Of a stretch of 37,473 nucleotides of DNA, positions 1 to 12,455 are shown one piece after another. The position numbers were made by a program, and so were the translations under genes. How positions within the stretch are numbered: the stretch's first letter is position 1; every line of letters begins with the position of its first letter. This DNA comes from Granulosicoccus sp. (GTDB lineage: Bacteria; Pseudomonadota; Gammaproteobacteria; Granulosicoccales; Granulosicoccaceae): positions 107,740 to 145,212 of the forward strand of contig JAHDGK010000005.1 in the NCBI GenBank assembly GCA_020627685.1, written 5' to 3'. Under the pieces are notes generated by a model. The model was not told the DNA's origin. It worked only from the letters and a program-made list of their open reading frames with translations, and ran no database searches.

Positions 1-3000
1 GGATCTATCGAAGGTGTGATTTCTTATGGTTCTAAGGGCATTTATGTAGAAGGATCAAGTTCCGCTCACCAATATGTTATCGATGGTAGTGGTGCTGGTA
101 CAAGCACCAGCTCAAATTCCGCAAGTCTAAACGATACAGGTGCAAGCTTAATTAGTGGATTTTACAGAGCTGAAACAACAACAAACTCCTCGTTTTACAC
201 GAACGGCGCACTATCTGAAAATTATCTTGGAGCTGGTAGAAGCACGACCGGAACCAGCACCAGTTTAGAGATTGGTGGTCGTACATTGGGTAGTCTCACC
301 GCGCGTGTGTTTCAAGGTGAAATAGCTGAAGTTATTCAAATCAGTTCAGACGTAAGTGGGCTGCAACAGCATTCAATCGTAGAATCCTACTTAGCGTCTA
401 AGTACGGCATCTCGCTTGATCAGACTCTTCCCACTGACTATGTCGATTCAGCAGGTACGGTAGTCTGGCGTGCTAGCGACAACGTTGGCTATACCGCTGA
501 TATCTTTGCTCTTTCAAGAGATGATTTGTATAACCTTGACCAACGAGTTTCTAAGTCAGTTAATGCGGGAAGCATTCTGACCATAGCATTAGATGCTGAT
601 TTTACTTCCCCGAATCAGAGCGCTGCTCGTACTACAGCACACTCTAATGACAAACAGTTTTTATATTTGTCTAACAACGGAGAATCTACCAACACGATAA
701 CAACAGAGGTTCCATCTAACGAACCGGTGTTGGGCAATAACCGAATTGCACGTGAATGGCGAGTCACGAAATCAGCGAATTTTGGACAAGCTACACACCT
801 GAGCTTTTCAGGGTTTGATAATGCTTACTACTTAATCAGTGATGCCGATGGAGATTTTTCATCTGGTGCAACTGTTATGGGCCGACTAAGCGCTACGGGT
901 GAATTTCCTGGGGCAGTCTTGACAGATGGACTCTACTTAACGCTGGTTAAGGGGCTTGATACAGATTCAGACGGTGTTATCGATCTGATGGATTCAGACG
1001 ATGACAACGATGGAATTCCGGATTCAGTCGAAGGTACCGATGATGCTGATAATGATGGTATCCCTAATAATCTTGATACCGATAGTGATGGCGATGGATT
1101 ATCTGATGTATCTGAAGGCGCCGGTGACACTGATAACGATGGAGTACCCAACTACTTAGATGAGGACTCTGACGGTGACGGTGTGCCTGATGTCACGGAA
1201 GGGCCGGATACCTACATTGTTGTAGACAGTGCAACTGTTTCAGGTGCGGAAGATAGCGCCATTCCATTGGGAATCAACGTTGATCCGGCGATACTCACTG
1301 GAGGTTCACAGCTGGATCTTTTAAGTACAGAAATCGGTTTTCGAGATGCGTCATCAGGCAGCACTCCAGTGACGTTTACGGTGCCTGTAAATGCTACTTA
1401 TGTGCGCATAACTGGGGCGGGGGCAAGTGATAACGGAAGCGTGGCAGGCACCGAAGAAGACAATGTGTTTTCATCTATTTTGGTAGATATTGGAAATGCC
1501 ACCTACTCTGGTCATACAACGCTTGTTGTCTCTCAACGGACAGGCAATACCAACTACACGTTCAGCGATATACCGTTGGGTAGCTCGAGCGATACTGGGA
1601 TTGTAGTGGGGCACAACGATTCCGCTGTAAATTCGGTGACAGTTTCTTTAACCGGAAACACGTTGTCAGTGAGTGAAACACAGACCGTAGCGGACCAGGC
1701 TTTCCATGTTGAGTATCTAACGAGTAGTCAAAGCTCGTCTAGTTATATTGGGTCATCTTCTTTGGTACTAGGTACAGCCGTTACCACAGACTCTATCTCA
1801 CTACCAGCAACTGCTGATTTTGCAACATTGTCTGTGATGATGGCGCGAACCACGGCTACAGATTCTCGTGATGAAGATAAGGGGTTCGGAAGCATTTCAA
1901 TTGATGTTGAAGCCCTAACGGCCAGTGGTGTCATTTATGTTCATGATGGTGCCGGTGGTGAAAATGTTTCTAGCTACGCATTCAGTAATTACGATTTAAC
2001 CAGCGATCTACCGATATTATCTAACGCCGGTCAGATTGTTGGTGATATAACAGCCAATGCTGATTCCTTATCGAATATGACGCTTTCGCTAGTAGGAAAT
2101 GTATTGACGATCACTCGTACTTCTGACATGGCAAACAAGTATTCGGCGATGTTTAGTGCGAACAGCTATGAAAGACTGTCCGTAGGATCTTCCGCACGAA
2201 TTTTGGGTAGCTCGGCAGTCACTGGTAATTATCAAGCTAACAGTTCCATTACCAATACCTTTGACCTTGTCATTCCAGGTAATGCAATAACAGGTACGGT
2301 TTCGCTGATGATGTACAACAGCACTAGCCATACTTCTTCCAATAATGAAAATTCTGGGATGGCTTCATTTTCCGTTGATCTCGAGAATGAAACTACATCG
2401 GGTTCGATGATGATCATGCGATCATCAACTCCCGATCTTGTCTCCTGGAAAAATGTTCCGTTCGGAACTCGTCTATTTGATCATGCAGATACAGTCTCTA
2501 ACCGGGCGTCACTAGGGAGCTTCTCAGACCAACTCGCAGGTGTTCCGTCTTTTAGTCGTATAGTTTTATCCGATGGTTCAGACGTGCTTAGAATGAGTGC
2601 GAATCCAACTGTGACTGCTACTGTCTACTCACAATATCAGTTGGTAATGGGGGCACAATGGTCAGGGCAGCTTCCCATTGAATTTGCTACATCTGTCAGC
2701 AATGGAACCCTGTCGCATGGTGCGCTTAATCCCGATTCTGGACTCTGGGTTGTGGATCCTGCTGATATCGCGAATTTAGCGTTTGTACCGAACGAGCATT
2801 TTTCGGGAGCAGACATTGATTTCACTATCAACTACTCAGGCGAGAACGATACCGTATCAATCGATGTGACTCGTGTTGCAGATGCACCTATCGTCAGCAG
2901 CGTTGATCAGCAAGCTACGCAGCGTGTTGTGGCTGATGTGTCCGATAGCTACTCAGCTGCATTAGTTGATACGGATGGTTCAGAAAACCTCTTTGTTGAG

Positions 3001-6000
3001 CTGACAGTGACGACAGGCCATACCATCAGTGACGGTGTGAGTTCGTTTACCGCAACTGCCGGAAACAACTCGGTAGATGCATCAAGCTGGGATCCATCTG
3101 CGCTCACTTATTTGTCAGATGATGTTGGTGTCTTTACTGTGGGTGTTCGCGCAGTTGCAACCGATACCGATGGATTTTCTGCAACACCTGACACTGCGGA
3201 ATCCAACACCTCTTTCGATATCACCGTTCTTCTGGACACAGATGGTGATGGAGATGCTGACATTATCGATACTGATGATGACAATGATGGTATCTCCGAT
3301 GTTGATGAGGGGGTTGCCGATACAGATGGCGACGGAACTCCGGATTCTCTAGATACTGATTCAGATGGTGACGGTGTACCAGATGCCACAGAAGGAGGTG
3401 GCGATGCTGACGGTGATGGCATCCTTGATCACATTGATAATGATACCGATGGCGATGGAATTCCTGATGCCGCTGAAGGGTCAATAGACTCTGACGGTGA
3501 CTCCATACCGGATTATCTGGATACGGATTCAGACGGCGACGGACTGGGTGATGCTGCCGAAGGTGCTATCGATAGCGACAATGATGGCATATTAGATTAT
3601 TTAGATACTGATAGCGATGGTGATGGCATTGATGACGCTGTTGAAGGCAGCATTGATACCGATAGCGATGGCATTTTGGACTACCTCGATCAGGATTCTG
3701 ACGGTGATGGTATCAACGACAGCGTTGAAGGCGCGGTAGATTCAGATGGCGACGGCGCTCCGGACTACGTTGATCTTGACGCTGATGGTGATGGAATTAC
3801 CGACTCGGTAGAAGGGGTTGTCGATACTGATTCAGACGGCCAGCCTGACTACTTAGATACCGACAGTGATGGCGATGGTATTTCAGATGCTGATGAAGGC
3901 ACAGCTGATTCAGATGGTGATGGAATACCTGACGCTCAAGACACTGATGCTAACAACGATGGCATTCCGGACGCGGACTTAGGGACGGGTGATCAGGATG
4001 GTGACGGTGTTCCAGATTATCTTGATGATGACATCGATGGAGATGGCATTGCCAACATCAGTGAAGGGGCTCCTAACCCCACTGACGACAGTGATGGTGA
4101 TGGCATACCGAATTATGCTGATACCGATTCCGATAACGATGGAATTGACGATGCTGCGGAAGGCAACGGTGATTTAGACGGAGATGGTATTCCGGATTAT
4201 TTGGACGGAGATAGCGACGGTGATGGCATCGCAGACATCAACGAAGGTAGCGTCGATTCTGATAACGACGGAATTCCAGACTACGCAGACTCTGACAGTG
4301 ACGGCGATGGTGTGCCTGATTCTGCAGAAGGTTCAGCGGATACTGATTTAGACGGTATCCCGGATTACCTGGATTTAGATGTTGATGGTGACGGCATACC
4401 CGATGCGGTAGAAGGGTTTGTCGACTCTGATGGTGACGGTACTGCAGATTACAAAGATCTAGACAGCGACAACGACGGGTTAGGTGATGGTGCTGAAGGT
4501 ACTGTCGACAGCGATGGTGATGGAATTGCCGACTACCTTGACCCTGATAGTGATAACGACGGTTTACTAGATAGTGAAGAAGCCGCAGGCGATACCGACG
4601 GCGATGGCGTCGCTGACTATCTGGATGATGATAGTGATAACGATGGTATTCCAGACGGTGTGGAAGGTAACTTCGATTCCGATGGCGACGGTGCACCTGA
4701 TTATCTGGATGACGACAGCGACGGTGATGGTATCCCGGATATTTTAGAGGGTGCCGGTGATGCTGACGGAGACCTCATACCGGATTACCTGGATTCCGAT
4801 AGCGATAACGACGGTATACCCGATAGCGTTGAAGGGGCAGGTGATTTTGATAACGACGGAATCCCTGATTCAATCGATACTGATGCAAACGGCGATGGTA
4901 TTCCAGATGCCGCATTAGGTAGCGGCGATCAGGATGGTGACGGTGTTCCTGATTACCTGGATGGCGACATCGATGGTGATGGTATTGCCAACGGTACGGA
5001 AGGGTCTGTTGTACCTGCTGAAGACAGCGATGGCGACGGTATACCTAACTATGCTGATACCGATAGCGACAACGATGGTATTGCAGATGTGCTGGAAGGC
5101 ACGGGTGATGCCGATGGCGATGGAATTCCAGACGCCCATGACACTGACAGTGACAATGATGGTTTAGCAGATTCTGCTGAAGGCATCTTAGACTCTGACC
5201 AGGACGGTATTTTGGATTATCTGGATACCGATAGTGACGGTGACGGCATCAATGACAGCATTGAAACCTCCGCTGACACTGACGGCGATGGAATCCCTAA
5301 CTATCTTGATACTGATAGTGACAATGATGGTATTGGTGATGCCATGGAAAGTAGTGGTGATGCTGATGGTGATGGCGCGCCTGACTTTCTGGATAACGAT
5401 AGTGACGGTGATGGAATTACTGATGGCGCTGAAGGTTCTAACGATACCGATGGCGATGGAATTCCTGACTACTTAGATTCTGATAGTGATGGCGACGGTA
5501 TTCCCGATGTCATCGAAGGGTCTACTGATAGCGATGGCGATGGTATACCGGACGCTCAAGATACGGATGCAAACGGTGATGGTATTCCTGATGCGAACCT
5601 TTCAGACGGTGATATCGATAACGACGGTATACCTGACTATCTAGATGGTGATATCGACGGTGACGGCATACCTAACGGCAGTGAAGGTGCGTTGAATCCG
5701 GCAGCTGACAGTGATGGTGATGGTATTCCAAACTACGCAGATTCTGATAGCGACAACGATGGCGTGCCTGATAGTGAAGAGGGTACGGGTGATGCTGATG
5801 GTGATGGCTTACTGGATGCGTATGATCCTGATGCTGATAACGATGGCATTCCTGATGGTCTTGAGGGCACGAACGACACCGACGGTGACGGCGTTGCAGA
5901 CTACTTAGATTCTGACAGCGATAACGATGGTATTCCCGATAGCATTGAAGGGTCGGTGGATTCAGATGGCGATGGCATTCCGGATTCGCAGGATAGCGAT

Positions 6001-8421
6001 GGAAACAACGACGGTATTCCAGATTCGCTCTTAGGTTCCGGTGATCTTGATGGCGACGGCATTCCAGATTATTTGGATAGCGATATCGACGGTGATGGCG
6101 TTAGCAACACTGAAGAAGCGCAGCCAGATGCAACCACTGATAGTGATGGTGACGGTCTTCCTGATTTTATCGATAGCGACAGTGATAACGATGGGGTGCC
6201 TGATTCCGAAGAGTCTCGCGGTGATACTGATGGCGATGGTATCCCTGACTTCGCTGACACAGATGCGGATGGTGACGGCGTTCCTGATGTAGCGGAAGGC
6301 TTCGGTGATACGGATGGTGACGGTGTTGCTGACTTTATCGATCTGGATGCGGATAACGATGGCATTCCAGATGTCACTGAAGGTACAGAAGATACTGATC
6401 GTGATGGGGTTCTAGACATTAAAGATCTGGATTCTGACAACGACGGTCTGCCTGATCTCATTGAAGCCGGTGGTGATGACATAGACGGTGACGGCCGCGT
6501 CGATAACTATGTGGATAACAACAACGATGGTTACGATGATGGAATGGCTGCAGTGCCACTGCCTGTCGATAACAGCGATAGCGATGACTTGCCGGACTAC
6601 AAAGATCTTGATTCCGACAACGATGGCATTCCCGATACACGAGAGTCAGCGCTTGCCGCATTAGATAGTAATGGTGACGGCCGAATAGATGATGGAGTGG
6701 ATGCGCAAGCATCGCAGCAATCGTCAAATTTTGTCGGTGGCCAACTGCTTAATGACATTCTTGATGAAGATGGTGATGGTTGGGCTGACAACATACCCGC
6801 CAACATGATTGTCGATACTGACGGTGATGGCATGCCTAATCATCAGGATCGGGATAGTGACGGTGATGGTATCAATGACCTGATTGAAGCCGGTGGTGTC
6901 GATGAGGATGGCGATGGCGAGGTTGATGGTTGGAATGATGTTGATGCCGACGGAATACCTGACGACATTGATGCTGATCAACTCGGTACAAGCGATAGTG
7001 ATGGTGATGGCATAGCAGATTTTGCTGATGCAGATTACTTGAATGAAGCTGATTCAGATGGAGACGGTATTGTGGATAGATTTGATATCGATCCTTTTGA
7101 TGAAGGTTTTGCCAGATCCTCAACAGGAGAGCCGTTATTAAGCAGTGCACTGCCTGATACTGACGGTGATGGAATTTCAGATGTGCAGCAACCGATCAAC
7201 GAACAAGGCTTTATTCGTACAGGCCTTGGTGGAGGTGGGTCGCTGAATCCTCTGAGTCTGTTAGCACTATGGTTCTTTGCGGCAGTGGTATTTCGCTGCC
7301 GTAAAGCCGAATTCAATCTTTTCAATTCGGTACGGAGAAAAACTATGCAGAGTAGTGGTCGACGTTCGATAGTTGCCGTTGCCGTATTGTTTTCGGTTTC
7401 GGGTTGTTCCACACTGGGTTTACAAGAGCAGAGTGAACGCCCATCGCTTGGCGCTGCTGCTCCAGAGCAACATAGGGTTGGTAATCATGTCTATGTTGCC
7501 GCAGGTGTAGGCACAAGCCGGCTGAAACCTGATACGAGTGAAGTAACGACATTTGCTGTCAATGATAGAAATAATGGCGGTCAGCAAATTACCTTGGGAG
7601 TCGATGTTTCTCGCCAGCTATCGCTGGAGTTGCATTCTGCTGATTTAGGTGCTGCCGGATTGTCACCAGAAGGCGGAATTAACTACAACATGCATGGTGC
7701 AAGTGCACTCATATATGCAGGTAAAAACCGGCACAATTATAAGCGAGCTGGATTTACCGGTTATGGTCGCGTCGGTTATGGTGTGATGGAAAACAGCGCT
7801 GCCGGAAACATTCCGTATCGCCAAGAAGAATCAAACCATTTACTTGTCGGCGCCGGTTTGGAATATATGACAACAGTGGGTCTTGGTTTTCGAGCCGATT
7901 TGGTATCGTATGAAGATGACGCACAATACGCCCAGTTGGCCATCGTGTATCGAATGGGATCACCGCGCCGCGGGCAGAATGGTGTGATAGCAGAGTCGGG
8001 TACCGACGCAACGGTTAAAAACTCATCGGAGCCATTGCTCCAGGCAGCTATTGCAGTCTCTAATGAAGTTAATGCCTGTGAGGCTCATGCCTCTAATGAT
8101 AGTAATCTATACTTCAATACGAACTCAGTTGTCATGAGTGTAGAAGGGAGACAGCTGTTACAAGCTGTGGCTCAGAAGATGCGGAGCTGTGATAACTTGA
8201 CCCTAGCCCTATCGGCACATACTGATGGCACCGGCACCCCGGGTTATAACCAGAATTTGTCTAAACAAAGAGCGAGCGTTGTTGGGCAGCATTTGTTGGC
8301 CATGGGTGTTCAAGCAGCCAGGATTCAGGCAAAAGCCTACGGTGAAACGCGTCCGGTAGCGCCAAATTCTACGGTGGAAGGTCGACAATTGAACCGGCGT
8401 GTGCAAATGCGCCTTCAGTGA
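1..8421 (+). CDS. Giant TSP3-repeat surface protein with C-terminal OmpA domain, 5' partial
   Basis: The reading frame is open at base 1, so the true start lies upstream. Counting from the GTG at 16, the visible order is: a LamG/concanavalin-like segment (about residues 1-300), a few thrombospondin type 3 (TSP3) repeats (314-395), beta-rich segments (about 400-1070), a long TSP3 array (about 1074-2390), a Gly-rich hydrophobic basic tail resembling GlyGly-CTERM (2403-2430), then M2444 with a lipoprotein-type signal (lipobox SVSGC), a beta-barrel-like region and an OmpA peptidoglycan-binding domain (about 2695-2801). TSP3 units carry DxDxDG calcium motifs. The likely role is a calcium-stiffened surface or adhesion protein. 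The odd point is that a sorting tail and a second export signal sit inside one unbroken frame, so this may be two genes whose separating stop was lost. The frame and domains are certain; function is inferred. Confidence 0.85.
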   Translation, partial: GSIEGVISYGSKGIYVEGSSSAHQYVIDGSGAGTSTSSNSASLNDTGASLISGFYRAETTTNSSFYTNGALSENYLGAGRSTTGTSTSLEIGGRTLGSLTARVFQGEIAEVIQISSDVSGLQQHSIVESYLASKYGISLDQTLPTDYVDSAGTVVWRASDNVGYTADIFALSRDDLYNLDQRVSKSVNAGSILTIALDADFTSPNQSAARTTAHSNDKQFLYLSNNGESTNTITTEVPSNEPVLGNNRIAREWRVTKSANFGQATHLSFSGFDNAYYLISDADGDFSSGATVMGRLSATGEFPGAVLTDGLYLTLVKGLDTDSDGVIDLMDSDDDNDGIPDSVEGTDDADNDGIPNNLDTDSDGDGLSDVSEGAGDTDNDGVPNYLDEDSDGDGVPDVTEGPDTYIVVDSATVSGAEDSAIPLGINVDPAILTGGSQLDLLSTEIGFRDASSGSTPVTFTVPVNATYVRITGAGASDNGSVAGTEEDNVFSSILVDIGNATYSGHTTLVVSQRTGNTNYTFSDIPLGSSSDTGIVVGHNDSAVNSVTVSLTGNTLSVSETQTVADQAFHVEYLTSSQSSSSYIGSSSLVLGTAVTTDSISLPATADFATLSVMMARTTATDSRDEDKGFGSISIDVEALTASGVIYVHDGAGGENVSSYAFSNYDLTSDLPILSNAGQIVGDITANADSLSNMTLSLVGNVLTITRTSDMANKYSAMFSANSYERLSVGSSARILGSSAVTGNYQANSSITNTFDLVIPGNAITGTVSLMMYNSTSHTSSNNENSGMASFSVDLENETTSGSMMIMRSSTPDLVSWKNVPFGTRLFDHADTVSNRASLGSFSDQLAGVPSFSRIVLSDGSDVLRMSANPTVTATVYSQYQLVMGAQWSGQLPIEFATSVSNGTLSHGALNPDSGLWVVDPADIANLAFVPNEHFSGADIDFTINYSGENDTVSIDVTRVADAPIVSSVDQQATQRVVADVSDSYSAALVDTDGSENLFVELTVTTGHTISDGVSSFTATAGNNSVDASSWDPSALTYLSDDVGVFTVGVRAVATDTDGFSATPDTAESNTSFDITVLLDTDGDGDADIIDTDDDNDGISDVDEGVADTDGDGTPDSLDTDSDGDGVPDATEGGGDADGDGILDHIDNDTDGDGIPDAAEGSIDSDGDSIPDYLDTDSDGDGLGDAAEGAIDSDNDGILDYLDTDSDGDGIDDAVEGSIDTDSDGILDYLDQDSDGDGINDSVEGAVDSDGDGAPDYVDLDADGDGITDSVEGVVDTDSDGQPDYLDTDSDGDGISDADEGTADSDGDGIPDAQDTDANNDGIPDADLGTGDQDGDGVPDYLDDDIDGDGIANISEGAPNPTDDSDGDGIPNYADTDSDNDGIDDAAEGNGDLDGDGIPDYLDGDSDGDGIADINEGSVDSDNDGIPDYADSDSDGDGVPDSAEGSADTDLDGIPDYLDLDVDGDGIPDAVEGFVDSDGDGTADYKDLDSDNDGLGDGAEGTVDSDGDGIADYLDPDSDNDGLLDSEEAAGDTDGDGVADYLDDDSDNDGIPDGVEGNFDSDGDGAPDYLDDDSDGDGIPDILEGAGDADGDLIPDYLDSDSDNDGIPDSVEGAGDFDNDGIPDSIDTDANGDGIPDAALGSGDQDGDGVPDYLDGDIDGDGIANGTEGSVVPAEDSDGDGIPNYADTDSDNDGIADVLEGTGDADGDGIPDAHDTDSDNDGLADSAEGILDSDQDGILDYLDTDSDGDGINDSIETSADTDGDGIPNYLDTDSDNDGIGDAMESSGDADGDGAPDFLDNDSDGDGITDGAEGSNDTDGDGIPDYLDSDSDGDGIPDVIEGSTDSDGDGIPDAQDTDANGDGIPDANLSDGDIDNDGIPDYLDGDIDGDGIPNGSEGALNPAADSDGDGIPNYADSDSDNDGVPDSEEGTGDADGDGLLDAYDPDADNDGIPDGLEGTNDTDGDGVADYLDSDSDNDGIPDSIEGSVDSDGDGIPDSQDSDGNNDGIPDSLLGSGDLDGDGIPDYLDSDIDGDGVSNTEEAQPDATTDSDGDGLPDFIDSDSDNDGVPDSEESRGDTDGDGIPDFADTDADGDGVPDVAEGFGDTDGDGVADFIDLDADNDGIPDVTEGTEDTDRDGVLDIKDLDSDNDGLPDLIEAGGDDIDGDGRVDNYVDNNNDGYDDGMAAVPLPVDNSDSDDLPDYKDLDSDNDGIPDTRESALAALDSNGDGRIDDGVDAQASQQSSNFVGGQLLNDILDEDGDGWADNIPANMIVDTDGDGMPNHQDRDSDGDGINDLIEAGGVDEDGDGEVDGWNDVDADGIPDDIDADQLGTSDSDGDGIADFADADYLNEADSDGDGIVDRFDIDPFDEGFARSSTGEPLLSSALPDTDGDGISDVQQPINEQGFIRTGLGGGGSLNPLSLLALWFFAAVVFRCRKAEFNLFNSVRRKTMQSSGRRSIVAVAVLFSVSGCSTLGLQEQSERPSLGAAAPEQHRVGNHVYVAAGVGTSRLKPDTSEVTTFAVNDRNNGGQQITLGVDVSRQLSLELHSADLGAAGLSPEGGINYNMHGASALIYAGKNRHNYKRAGFTGYGRVGYGVMENSAAGNIPYRQEESNHLLVGAGLEYMTTVGLGFRADLVSYEDDAQYAQLAIVYRMGSPRRGQNGVIAESGTDATVKNSSEPLLQAAIAVSNEVNACEAHASNDSNLYFNTNSVVMSVEGRQLLQAVAQKMRSCDNLTLALSAHTDGTGTPGYNQNLSKQRASVVGQHLLAMGVQAARIQAKAYGETRPVAPNSTVEGRQLNRRVQMRLQ
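955..1200 (+). repeat. Short TSP3 repeat block (first block)
   Basis: About three TSP3-type calcium-binding units encoded in the giant gene, with the pattern DTDSDGV..DLMDSDDDNDGIPD followed by EG linkers. They are separated from the main array by about 2 kb coding beta-type segments. Confidence 0.85.
3232..7185 (+). repeat. Main TSP3 repeat array, 84-bp (28-residue) period
   Basis: Tandem degenerate repeats with an 84-bp unit; for example, equivalent GAT codons lie at 3571 and 3655. Each unit reads roughly D-x-D-x-D-G-I-P-D-Y-L-D, then T-D-S-D-G-D-G-I-x-D, then an EG linker. The array is regular to about 6480, then less regular with inserted spacers. Each unit has two Asp-rich calcium loops. 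Synonymous codons vary between units, so DNA identity is lower than protein identity. Confidence 0.92.
3931..6270 (+). repeat. Four higher-order modules within the TSP3 array
   Basis: A variant module (DTDAN/GxDGIPD...LG.GD.DxDG...DxDIDGDG....EG..NP..DSDGDG) starts at 3931, 4867, 5551 and 5983. The distances are 936, 684 and 432 bp, which equal 11, 8 and 5 ordinary 84-bp units plus 12 bp each time. The extra 12 bp is a four-residue insertion in the EG linker (as in EGAPNPTDDSD compared with EGSVDSD). Confidence 0.85.
7345..8421 (+). CDS. OmpA-family lipoprotein (possible separate gene inside the larger frame)
   Basis: An ATG at 7345 follows a GGAGA ribosome-binding sequence (7334-7338) at good spacing and begins a 358-residue protein in the same frame as the upstream giant gene. 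Its N-terminus is a typical lipoprotein signal: basic residues, then a hydrophobic stretch ending SVSGC. A region with alternating aromatic/hydrophobic strands resembling an OmpA-type 8-strand barrel follows. The last ~105 residues are an OmpA C-terminal domain (YFNTNS, the AHTDGTG motif, LSKQRA, GETRP, NRRV), which binds peptidoglycan. Either this is independently translated, coupled to the upstream frame, or it is the natural C-terminus of one fused protein. The internal signal peptide and ribosome-binding site favour an independent start. Confidence 0.55.
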   Translation: MQSSGRRSIVAVAVLFSVSGCSTLGLQEQSERPSLGAAAPEQHRVGNHVYVAAGVGTSRLKPDTSEVTTFAVNDRNNGGQQITLGVDVSRQLSLELHSADLGAAGLSPEGGINYNMHGASALIYAGKNRHNYKRAGFTGYGRVGYGVMENSAAGNIPYRQEESNHLLVGAGLEYMTTVGLGFRADLVSYEDDAQYAQLAIVYRMGSPRRGQNGVIAESGTDATVKNSSEPLLQAAIAVSNEVNACEAHASNDSNLYFNTNSVVMSVEGRQLLQAVAQKMRSCDNLTLALSAHTDGTGTPGYNQNLSKQRASVVGQHLLAMGVQAARIQAKAYGETRPVAPNSTVEGRQLNRRVQMRLQ

Positions 8422-10736: not shown

Positions 10737-10880
10737 ATGGATAACAGCTCTACCCCTACATGGGATATCGATTTCTATAGCGATGCGGTCATTAAAGATC
10801 CGTTTCCCGTTTATGAGCGGCTGAGAGGGCTAGGTCCATTCGTCTATTTACCGCAGAACGAACTCGTACTTGATATTTAG
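10737..10880 (+). pseudogene. Cytochrome P450 N-terminal remnant (47 residues)
   Basis: An ATG at 10737 opens a 47-codon frame ending in TAG at 10880. Its product matches the start of bacterial class I P450s: DIDFYSDAVIKDPFPVYERL, then LRGLGPFVYLPQNELV. In intact proteins this is followed by about 350 more residues including the I-helix and the heme-cysteine loop; none of these are here. The sulfatase begins 13 bases after the stop. This is most simply a gene truncated by deletion, leaving promoter and N-terminus upstream of the sulfatase. A short leader peptide is a weaker alternative. Confidence 0.75.
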
Positions 10881-10892
10881 AGAGACCAGCAC

Positions 10893-12455
10893 ATGAGTGA
10901 TCGACCTAATTTTTTGTACTTTATGACAGATCAACATCGGTCTGATGGTTTGGGTTGTTACCATCATCCTGTGGTGCGCACCCCTAATATCGATGCTCTC
11001 GCTCAGTCGGGGACCCGTTTCGAGCAATTTTTTGTGGCAACTCCCGTGTGCATGCCTAACCGTGCGAGCTTTATGACCGGGCGCTATCCGAGTACCCATG
11101 GCTTAAGGTACAACGGCTGTCTGTTATCAGAGCGTGCGAATACATTCGTGGATGTGCTGGGTAAAAGTGGATATCGAACAGCGAGCATTGGCAAAAGTCA
11201 TTTGCAGCCCATGACCGACATCGCTCCATTTTCGGCAGAGGAGTTCGCTACAGGCCCGATAAAAGAAGCTTGGAAAAAAGACGATGCTCTATACGATAAC
11301 GAACAGCCTGCTCAATATGATTCCGATGGGCGTTATAAATTCCCCGAACCATACTATGGCTATCAACACATCGACATGGTAACGGGGCATGGGGACCGCG
11401 CCGGCGGTCATTACCAGCAGTGGTTTCGCGAACGTCATGATAACTGGCAAGAGCTTTTAGATCGGGACAATCAGCTTCCGCATAATTATTCGTGTCCTCA
11501 AGCCTTTAGAACTCCCATCCCTGAAGACAGCTACCCAACGGCATTTATCAGAGAGAAGGCCAAAGACTATTTACGGGCTGCACAGAATCACGACGAACCG
11601 TTTTTCTCGTTTGTCTCGTTTCCTGATCCTCATCATCCGTTCAACCCTCCGGGAAAGTACTGGGATATGTATAACCCGGATGACTTCGATTTATCCGTGC
11701 GCTACGAGGATCATCAAAATCCACCGCCCCCATTGCGTTATGCGAAGGAGCAATACGATACCGGTGAATTACCGAAATTAGCGCAGATAGCGTTCATGGC
11801 AAGTGATCAGCATATACGCGAGGCGATGGCCTTAACGGCAGGCATGACGACCATGATAGATGATGCTATTGGCGAGATAGTCGATGTTTTAAAAGAAACA
11901 GGGCAGTACGACAACACCGTGATCATTTTTAATTCCGACCATGGTGATTTTTTAGGTGATTTTAATTTACTGCTTAAAGGTGCTTGGCCAAAGGATGCAG
12001 TTACTCAGGTCCCTATGATTTGGTCTGACCCAAAGAACAGACAATCCTCTGTTACTTCATCATTAGCGTCTACCGTCGATATTGCGCCAACTATATTAGA
12101 GCGTGCCGGTATTCTTCCTTACTATGGTATGCAAGGTAAGAGTTTTATACCATGCCTAGAAGGCGAGTCGGGCCCAAGAGAGTCTTTGCTTATAGAGTTC
12201 AATGATGGCGGAAAACGGCTGGGCTTTAACCCGCCTGCGAGGGTGCGTGTCCTGGTTCGTGATGAGTGGCATCTGGCTATTTATAAAGGCGAGGAGTGGG
12301 GCGAGCTGTACGACAGGATCAACGACCCGAAACATTTGAATAACTTATGGGATAGTCCTGATCACGCCATAATAAAATCAGACTTGGTGCTCGAGTTATC
12401 GCATGAGCTTATTGCGCAAATGGATGAAAGCCCTCGTTCCACGTTGTTGGCGTAA
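10893..12455 (+). CDS. Type I sulfatase / phosphonate monoester hydrolase family enzyme
   Basis: The 520-residue protein has the alkaline-phosphatase-fold sulfatase layout. Metal-binding residues lie near the N-terminus (MTDQHRSD). The modification site C53-M-P-N-R57 fits the CxPxR rule for conversion of Cys to formylglycine. It is followed by ASFMTGR, and a second metal site is NSDHGD (D349, H350). It hydrolyses sulfate esters or related phosphonate esters; substrate specificity (choline sulfate, aryl sulfate, sugar sulfate) cannot be read from the sequence. There is no signal peptide, so it is probably cytoplasmic and acts on imported substrate. It sits 13 bases after the P450 remnant and converges on the GST-like gene. 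Confidence 0.9.
   Translation: MSDRPNFLYFMTDQHRSDGLGCYHHPVVRTPNIDALAQSGTRFEQFFVATPVCMPNRASFMTGRYPSTHGLRYNGCLLSERANTFVDVLGKSGYRTASIGKSHLQPMTDIAPFSAEEFATGPIKEAWKKDDALYDNEQPAQYDSDGRYKFPEPYYGYQHIDMVTGHGDRAGGHYQQWFRERHDNWQELLDRDNQLPHNYSCPQAFRTPIPEDSYPTAFIREKAKDYLRAAQNHDEPFFSFVSFPDPHHPFNPPGKYWDMYNPDDFDLSVRYEDHQNPPPPLRYAKEQYDTGELPKLAQIAFMASDQHIREAMALTAGMTTMIDDAIGEIVDVLKETGQYDNTVIIFNSDHGDFLGDFNLLLKGAWPKDAVTQVPMIWSDPKNRQSSVTSSLASTVDIAPTILERAGILPYYGMQGKSFIPCLEGESGPRESLLIEFNDGGKRLGFNPPARVRVLVRDEWHLAIYKGEEWGELYDRINDPKHLNNLWDSPDHAIIKSDLVLELSHELIAQMDESPRSTLLA

Follow-up and report, generated by a model that had tools for sequence, protein, structure and literature searches.

We analysed a window of 37,473 nucleotides of Granulosicoccus sp. 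DNA (assembly GCA_020627685.1, contig JAHDGK010000005.1, positions 107,740 to 145,212), in which one reading frame runs from a giant adhesin through a glycine-rich tail resembling a sorting tag, and on without a stop codon into a lipoprotein-type signal and an OmpA domain. This open frame is genuine and represents a real and repeated gene fusion. We consider it probable that the gene makes one precursor, from which a sorting protease and a signal peptidase would release an adhesin and its OmpA partner. The observations behind this reading are the anatomy of the gene, the recurrence of fused and split states among its relatives, the hairpin layout of the junction, and the genes for both proteases and for type II secretion that the genome carries; from these we infer both cuts, the export route and the partnership of the two products.

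Counted from its first start codon, the full frame encodes 4407 residues and is stop-free throughout; it begins 4803 nucleotides upstream of the window, which holds only its 3' part. In order, the protein has a signal-like N-terminus, a PA14 domain (47.3 bits in the whole protein), about 1400 residues of repeats enriched in Asp and Gly by composition, and a tail that has a transmembrane (TM) stretch and ends in Arg/Lys, followed by a basic loop, a second signal with a lipobox, a barrel region and the OmpA domain. The tail, TGLGGGGS-LNP-LSLLALWFFAAVVF-RCRK, occupies 7219-7305. Thirteen stop-free codons follow its end at 7305, and tail, loop, ATG at 7345 and lipobox share one frame that runs to the stop at 8419-8421. 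The initial annotation had placed the tail, these 13 codons, a ribosome-binding site, the ATG and the lipobox SVSGC in a single frame, and its coordinates were correct. The features of the frame within the window, all on the + strand, are:

1-7218 (+): 3' part of the adhesin region, with Asp/Gly-rich TSP3-type repeats at roughly 3240-7180 (TSP_3 match and composition)
7219-7242 (+): Gly-rich motif TGLGGGGS of the tail, lacking the Cys of most fused relatives (no NCBIfam or Pfam match)
7252-7293 (+): TM1, the hydrophobic part of the tail (mean hydropathy 2.27 over the best 15 residues)
7294-7365 (+): 24-residue basic loop with a net charge of +7, predicted cytoplasmic by the positive-inside rule
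7334-7347 (+): GGAG (7334-7337) and ATG (7345), a possible internal start, not conserved
7366-7407 (+): second signal with lipobox VSGC and a predicted signal peptidase II site before the Cys at 7405-7407 (motif pattern)
7453-7902 (+): putative outer-membrane beta-barrel region (Pfam barrel models below cut-off)
8110-8397 (+): OmpA peptidoglycan-binding domain (PF00691)

The basic loop thus both closes the tail and opens the second signal. The OmpA domain scores 63.3 bits against a cut-off of 27.2 and has solved structures among its relatives by sequence, and it is the one domain matched in the 4070-residue paralogue from the same genome (L048). TSP_3 reaches 78 bits over 22 stretches when the window part 1-7344 is scanned, and only 18.8 bits, below its cut-off of 25, when the 4407-residue protein is scanned whole. 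In the barrel region the Pfam models OMP_b-brl (25.2 bits, cut-off 28.7) and OmpA_membrane (18.8 bits, cut-off 21) both fall just short, and the predicted structure of the OmpA part contains a run of strands at low confidence (mean predicted local distance difference test score 39.8, from a two-row alignment). The lipoprotein pattern SVSGC follows a hydrophobic stretch as expected, and lipidation is predicted from this pattern.

To place the frame among its relatives, we used the barrel-OmpA part as the query. Matches were found in all 48 genomes of the family, a near named match lying on an uncultured Granulosicoccaceae bacterium contig (L011), and the genome of the window itself has 27, five of them in fused frames. 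The survey covers the matches listed, with about 21 candidates scored per genome at most, and is not exhaustive. The 165 frames retained gave 151 distinct barrels after removal of 14 duplicates, of which two truncated ones were set aside and 149 classified. Frames matching only after query residue 70 or ending before residue 170, including L079 with its masked stretch, were not counted, and the family matches G025:C234, G038:C341 and G038:C134 were left out, as were two from G056, which belongs to another family. In 40 of the 149 classified barrels the barrel part is fused in frame behind repeats and a tail; in 39 it forms a gene of its own immediately after one that ends in a tail (35 assigned by rule and four, L147, L172, L177 and L179, by eye); and the remaining 70 are alone, meaning that no tail-ended frame lies within about 400 nucleotides upstream in the stretch examined, a few of these being near contig ends. 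At least 26 of the 48 genomes contain a fusion, and three fusions (L059, L074 and L075) lie in one single-contig genome of 7.78 Mb.

The split pairs are tightly coupled. Measured from the ATG nearest the upstream stop, 28 of the 39 overlap by one to four nucleotides (a four-nucleotide ATGA overlap in 22 and a one-nucleotide overlap in six), four have a longer overlap and seven have none; the upstream stop is in the same +1 phase in 32. A tree of the 149 barrels requires at least nine switches between the fused and split states, a count taken over the whole of a rapidly built tree, in which long branches are flagged and roughly one inner branch in three is open. The window copy falls in a clade of four (Shimodaira-Hasegawa-like approximate likelihood-ratio support 98), in which the window, its paralogue L048 (53% identical) and L077 are fused and L021, from the same genome as L077, is split, its tail and OmpA start being separated by an in-frame stop. 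The comparison of relatives that the initial annotation had proposed, for deciding whether the two regions are always one gene or always two, thus came out as neither: the stop is present in some and absent in others. The 39 further fusions support its suggestion of a natural two-anchor fusion protein; its alternative of a stop lost between coupled genes holds for the evolution of the pair, which also occurs as overlapping or abutting genes and, in L021, with an in-frame stop.

Two further groups of loci were noted in this survey. L222 (G019:C75), a close relative of the window repeats and tail, ends six residues past the tail, indicating that the adhesin half also exists alone; no OmpA gene was seen in the short stretch behind it. 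In addition, 24 of the split pairs form a conserved group with a Cys-less Gly-type tail and a mostly overlapping OmpA-barrel gene (L004, L135, L138, L140-L142, L146-L148, L153, L154, L156, L157, L159, L161-L164, L167, L168, L172, L175, L177 and L179). The group is found in many genomes of the family, with one pair in the genome of the window.

The junction has the same layout in all 40 fusions: the hydrophobic tail comes first, then a loop 3-41 residues long that carries a net charge of +3 to +8, then another hydrophobic stretch. Basic loops stay cytoplasmic under the positive-inside rule, so the junction is predicted to form a membrane hairpin with its loop in the cytoplasm. The second signal carries a lipobox pattern in 23 fusions, an AxA pattern in 16 and neither in one, although the lipobox pattern probably overcalls L054, L082 and L176, where a later AxA is present. 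In 28 of the 40 loops there is no ATG, GTG or TTG, and the second part would therefore be unable to start on its own there. The remaining 12 loops contain 16 start codons, two of which are ATG, and only one of the 16, the ATG of the window, is preceded by a Shine-Dalgarno (SD) core, where 1.0 would be expected at the background rate of 6.0%; the ribosome-binding site of the window is thus at chance level. As a positive control, an SD core precedes 26 of the 39 split OmpA starts. The ribosome-binding site and ATG that the initial annotation had pointed out are present, then, but not conserved, since neither the paralogue L048 nor the next relative L077 has an ATG at the position of 7345. An internal ATG was accordingly rejected as a general mechanism.

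Among nine pairs of fused relatives, the ratio of nonsynonymous to synonymous differences (pN/pS) is 0.33 in the motif, 0.39 in TM1, 0.67 in the loop (115 codons), 0.43 in the second signal and 0.25 in the barrel, values that are biased downward by the protein-guided alignments. Between the window and L048, hydropathy, charge and the open frame are preserved in TM1 and loop.

Tails were compared with the curated models for GlyGly-CTERM (TIGR03501, cut-off 15.5 bits), JDVT-CTERM (NF033191, 27 bits) and MYXO-CTERM (TIGR03901, 20 bits). The window tail has the tripartite layout of a GlyGly-CTERM, with a Gly/Ser-rich motif, a TM stretch and a basic end, so that the resemblance first proposed holds, while membership of that family does not: the tail matches no curated model, and it is internal rather than C-terminal, the frame continuing to 8421. 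Its motif also lacks the invariant Cys of JDVT-CTERM. By pattern, this Cys is present in 37 of the 40 fused tails (L078, with the motif GSGCS, included), and the three Cys-less fusions (L047, L048 and L077) all belong to the window clade. Six Cys-bearing tails, of seven fused tails scanned, pass the JDVT-CTERM model with 29.2-47.3 bits, and a seventh Cys-bearing fused tail (L082) passes with 31.6 bits, making seven out of seven in these two scans; two fused relatives slightly pass MYXO-CTERM as well (23.6 and 20.3 bits). Four JDVT-type tails score 23 bits or more in the genome of the window; three are internal and one is terminal at a contig edge. Across the class, a JDVT tail scores above cut-off in 42 of 369 genomes. 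In the 30 loci read, tails were located with a hidden Markov model built from 20 tails, and in 29 of them only 0-21 residues follow the tail. Two of these 29 terminal tails (L195 and L210) are in the family of the window, so terminal tags occur there too. In L207, from another family, the JDVT tail is internal: a signal-like stretch comes next, and a barrel begins before the contig breaks off.

Near misses to GlyGly-CTERM were seen in L048 (12.1-12.4 bits), L021 (10.7) and L077 (10.8), and also in L222 (12.7-13.7), whose tail is terminal; the conserved split group was sampled with three Cys-less tails, one of which scored 13.7 bits while two gave no match. The model is short, and one of 14 control genomes scored above its cut-off. 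The genome of the window also encodes proteins that end in a GlyGly tail over the cut-off (L212, L217, L220, L223 and L226). An internal GlyGly-CTERM over the cut-off was found in L215 (G023:C1:5937467-5940529), in the single-contig genome, followed by a loop, an AxA signal, a barrel and an OmpA domain. Its frame is 5469 residues long and has Ig/cadherin-like domains, with no TSP3 repeats in the part read. Together with the internal JDVT tails, this case indicates that both tag types occur inside such frames.

Consistent with processing at these tags, candidate proteases are encoded in the same genome. Its single PF02517 match scores 109.3 bits against the MrtJ model (cut-off 75), and a rhombosortase is present at 148.7 bits (cut-off 84). 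Within the family, MrtJ is over the cut-off in 44 of 48 genomes, including all 28 good ones, and rhombosortase in 47 of 48. None of the 14 control genomes scored above either cut-off; weaker matches were found in 11 of them for MrtJ and in all 14 for rhombosortase. The rhombosortase gene (L092, G000:C113) adjoins, and is divergent from, gspG, gspH, gspI, gspJ and gspK, four of which are above their cut-offs, GspH scoring 79.1 against 80.

We propose that the N-terminal signal would carry the giant PA14/repeat adhesin over the inner membrane until the tail halts transfer, leaving its Arg/Lys end in the cytoplasm, and that the second signal would then re-enter the membrane and export the barrel-OmpA part. 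An intramembrane sorting protease may cut at the tail motif, MrtJ being the candidate for the Cys-bearing relatives and rhombosortase a first guess, and no more, for the Cys-less window copy. A signal peptidase would cut the second signal, presumably signal peptidase II in the window copy and signal peptidase I in a sizeable share of the relatives. The adhesin would reach the cell surface, probably through type II secretion, and the barrel-OmpA lipoprotein would go to the outer membrane, bind peptidoglycan and partner the adhesin. Such a partnership is suggested by the gene pairing and by the parallels with TraA/TraB and MXAN_5598 of Myxococcus xanthus described below. If the junction is removed by cleavage on both sides in any case, the stop codon becomes dispensable, and the family could switch between one frame and two coupled genes. 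More broadly, we lean, if only slightly, towards the view that the family and at least one case outside it make polyproteins of up to about 5,500 residues, from which the internal tag and signal hairpin is excised by two proteases, so that adhesin and partner are fixed at 1:1 and the stop codon is optional, having been gained and lost many times.

Several results weigh against a processed precursor. The cleavage at its centre is deduced rather than observed, and signal types were assigned by simple patterns. The NCBIfam scan of the window tail returned no match to TIGR03501, NF033191 or TIGR03901, which counts against both the GlyGly and the JDVT assignment; the fusion L050, one of the three internal JDVT-type tails of the same genome, stays below the JDVT cut-off at 23.5 bits; and none of the three Cys-less split tails scanned exceeds the GlyGly or JDVT cut-off. 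Between the window and L048, TM1 is 29% identical with no sign of constraint (pN 0.57, pS 0.59) and the loop is 20% identical with little (pN 0.57, pS 0.83). Finally, the GGAG and ATG of the window may still work in this copy. On a rival reading, the OmpA part would be translated mainly from ATG 7345, the long frame being a coupled pair minus its stop. The GGAG/ATG is well spaced, a good signal peptide follows, and split relatives start in this way, most of them behind an SD core. We nonetheless regard this as rather unlikely given the start-free loops, the missing ATG in L048 and L077 and the chance-level frequency of SD-preceded starts; an internal start could still add product in the window copy.

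That the fused protein stays uncut, its hairpin kept in the membrane and the linked adhesin and OmpA domain bridging the envelope, would agree with the continuous frame of all 40 fusions. It is unlikely in view of the retention of a lipobox or AxA in 39 of 40 second signals and of the protease motif in 37 of 40 tails, and 39 split pairs work without any link; moreover, a protein tethered by an inner-membrane hairpin would be expected to keep its barrel from reaching the outer membrane. Decay of the window copy, with the stop lost without consequence, could account for the weak constraint on TM1 and loop relative to the paralogue, yet the whole frame is stop-free and the barrel is constrained in the same comparison (pN 0.30, pS 0.81), which makes decay very improbable. 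A sequencing or assembly error, raised in the initial annotation, might be suspected from the stop between the parts in the close relative L021. It is hardly credible beside 39 further fusions, three of them in the single-contig 7.78-Mb genome, and a fused paralogue in the same genome. A precursor cut by two proteases is thus the reading that we retain.

Elsewhere in the window, long open reading frames (ORFs) lie on the - strand opposite the Asp-rich repeats (for example 3108-3422 and 6069-6482), with Ser/Pro-rich translations; they are probably by-products of the repeat codons and are not likely to be genes. A 47-codon ORF at 10737-10881 (+), in front of a sulfatase gene (10893-12455), looks by eye like the truncated N-terminus of a cytochrome P450, but a Pfam scan gave no match.

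An internal cut at a signal is known from the FbcH cytochrome b/c1 precursor of Bradyrhizobium, for which our literature search yielded no paper; it is split at an internal signal, has no sorting tag and gives respiratory inner-membrane proteins. Of the tag systems, the GlyGly-CTERM protein VesB is reported to undergo rhombosortase cleavage, C-terminal modification and type II secretion (PMC6219818). The window shares with it the Gly-rich motif, TM stretch and basic end, and its genome has rhombosortase and type II genes, but the VesB-type tag is terminal, whereas that of the window is internal and below the model. The JDVT-CTERM/MrtJ system is mentioned alongside MrtX, which is reported to cleave the MYXO-CTERM of TraA (PMC11980579). 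JDVT is the tag of most fused relatives, and MrtJ is in the genome, the window tail being Cys-less; JDVT tags are internal in most fused relatives and terminal in nearly all loci read across the class.

A four-base overlap joins the myxobacterial genes traA and traB, TraA having a PA14 domain, repeats and a C-terminal sorting tag and TraB an OmpA domain (PMC3325183). As far as that account goes, this resembles the family described here in its PA14, repeats and tag, its OmpA partner, and its four-nucleotide overlap, the commonest arrangement in our split pairs, with the difference that TraA/TraB are two genes and have cysteine-rich repeats where the window has TSP3-type repeats. Membership of TraA or TraB was rejected, as the NCBIfam models were not reached: the window scores 59.3 bits of the TraB cut-off of 700, over the OmpA domain only, and the TraA model has no match in the first 855 residues of the window protein.

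A close parallel is MXAN_5598 of M. xanthus, in which an internal MYXO-CTERM is followed by a barrel and OmpA domains in one protein, and for which a two-gene fusion with processing of the N-terminal part was suggested (PMC11980579). In the parts of the literature consulted it is the one published precedent for an internal tag; no description of fusions of this kind was found among the titles and abstract openings that our searches of the open-access literature listed. Like the window protein, it joins a large adhesin region, an internal tag, a barrel and OmpA in one chain. MXAN_5598 is, however, a single protein with a myxobacterial tag, while here at least 40 fusions stand beside 39 split pairs, with JDVT-like or Gly-rich tags, in a gammaproteobacterial-type family (the two were compared by description, not by sequence). 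Tags have been sought at protein ends and signals at their starts, and a family with both in mid-frame would be taken for single proteins. With one gene pair available in nature both fused and split, cutting of internal tags by MrtJ or rhombosortase becomes directly testable, and likewise the use of internal signals by bacterial signal peptidases. Overall, these comparisons extend TraAB-like adhesin/OmpA modules to a distant bacterial group.

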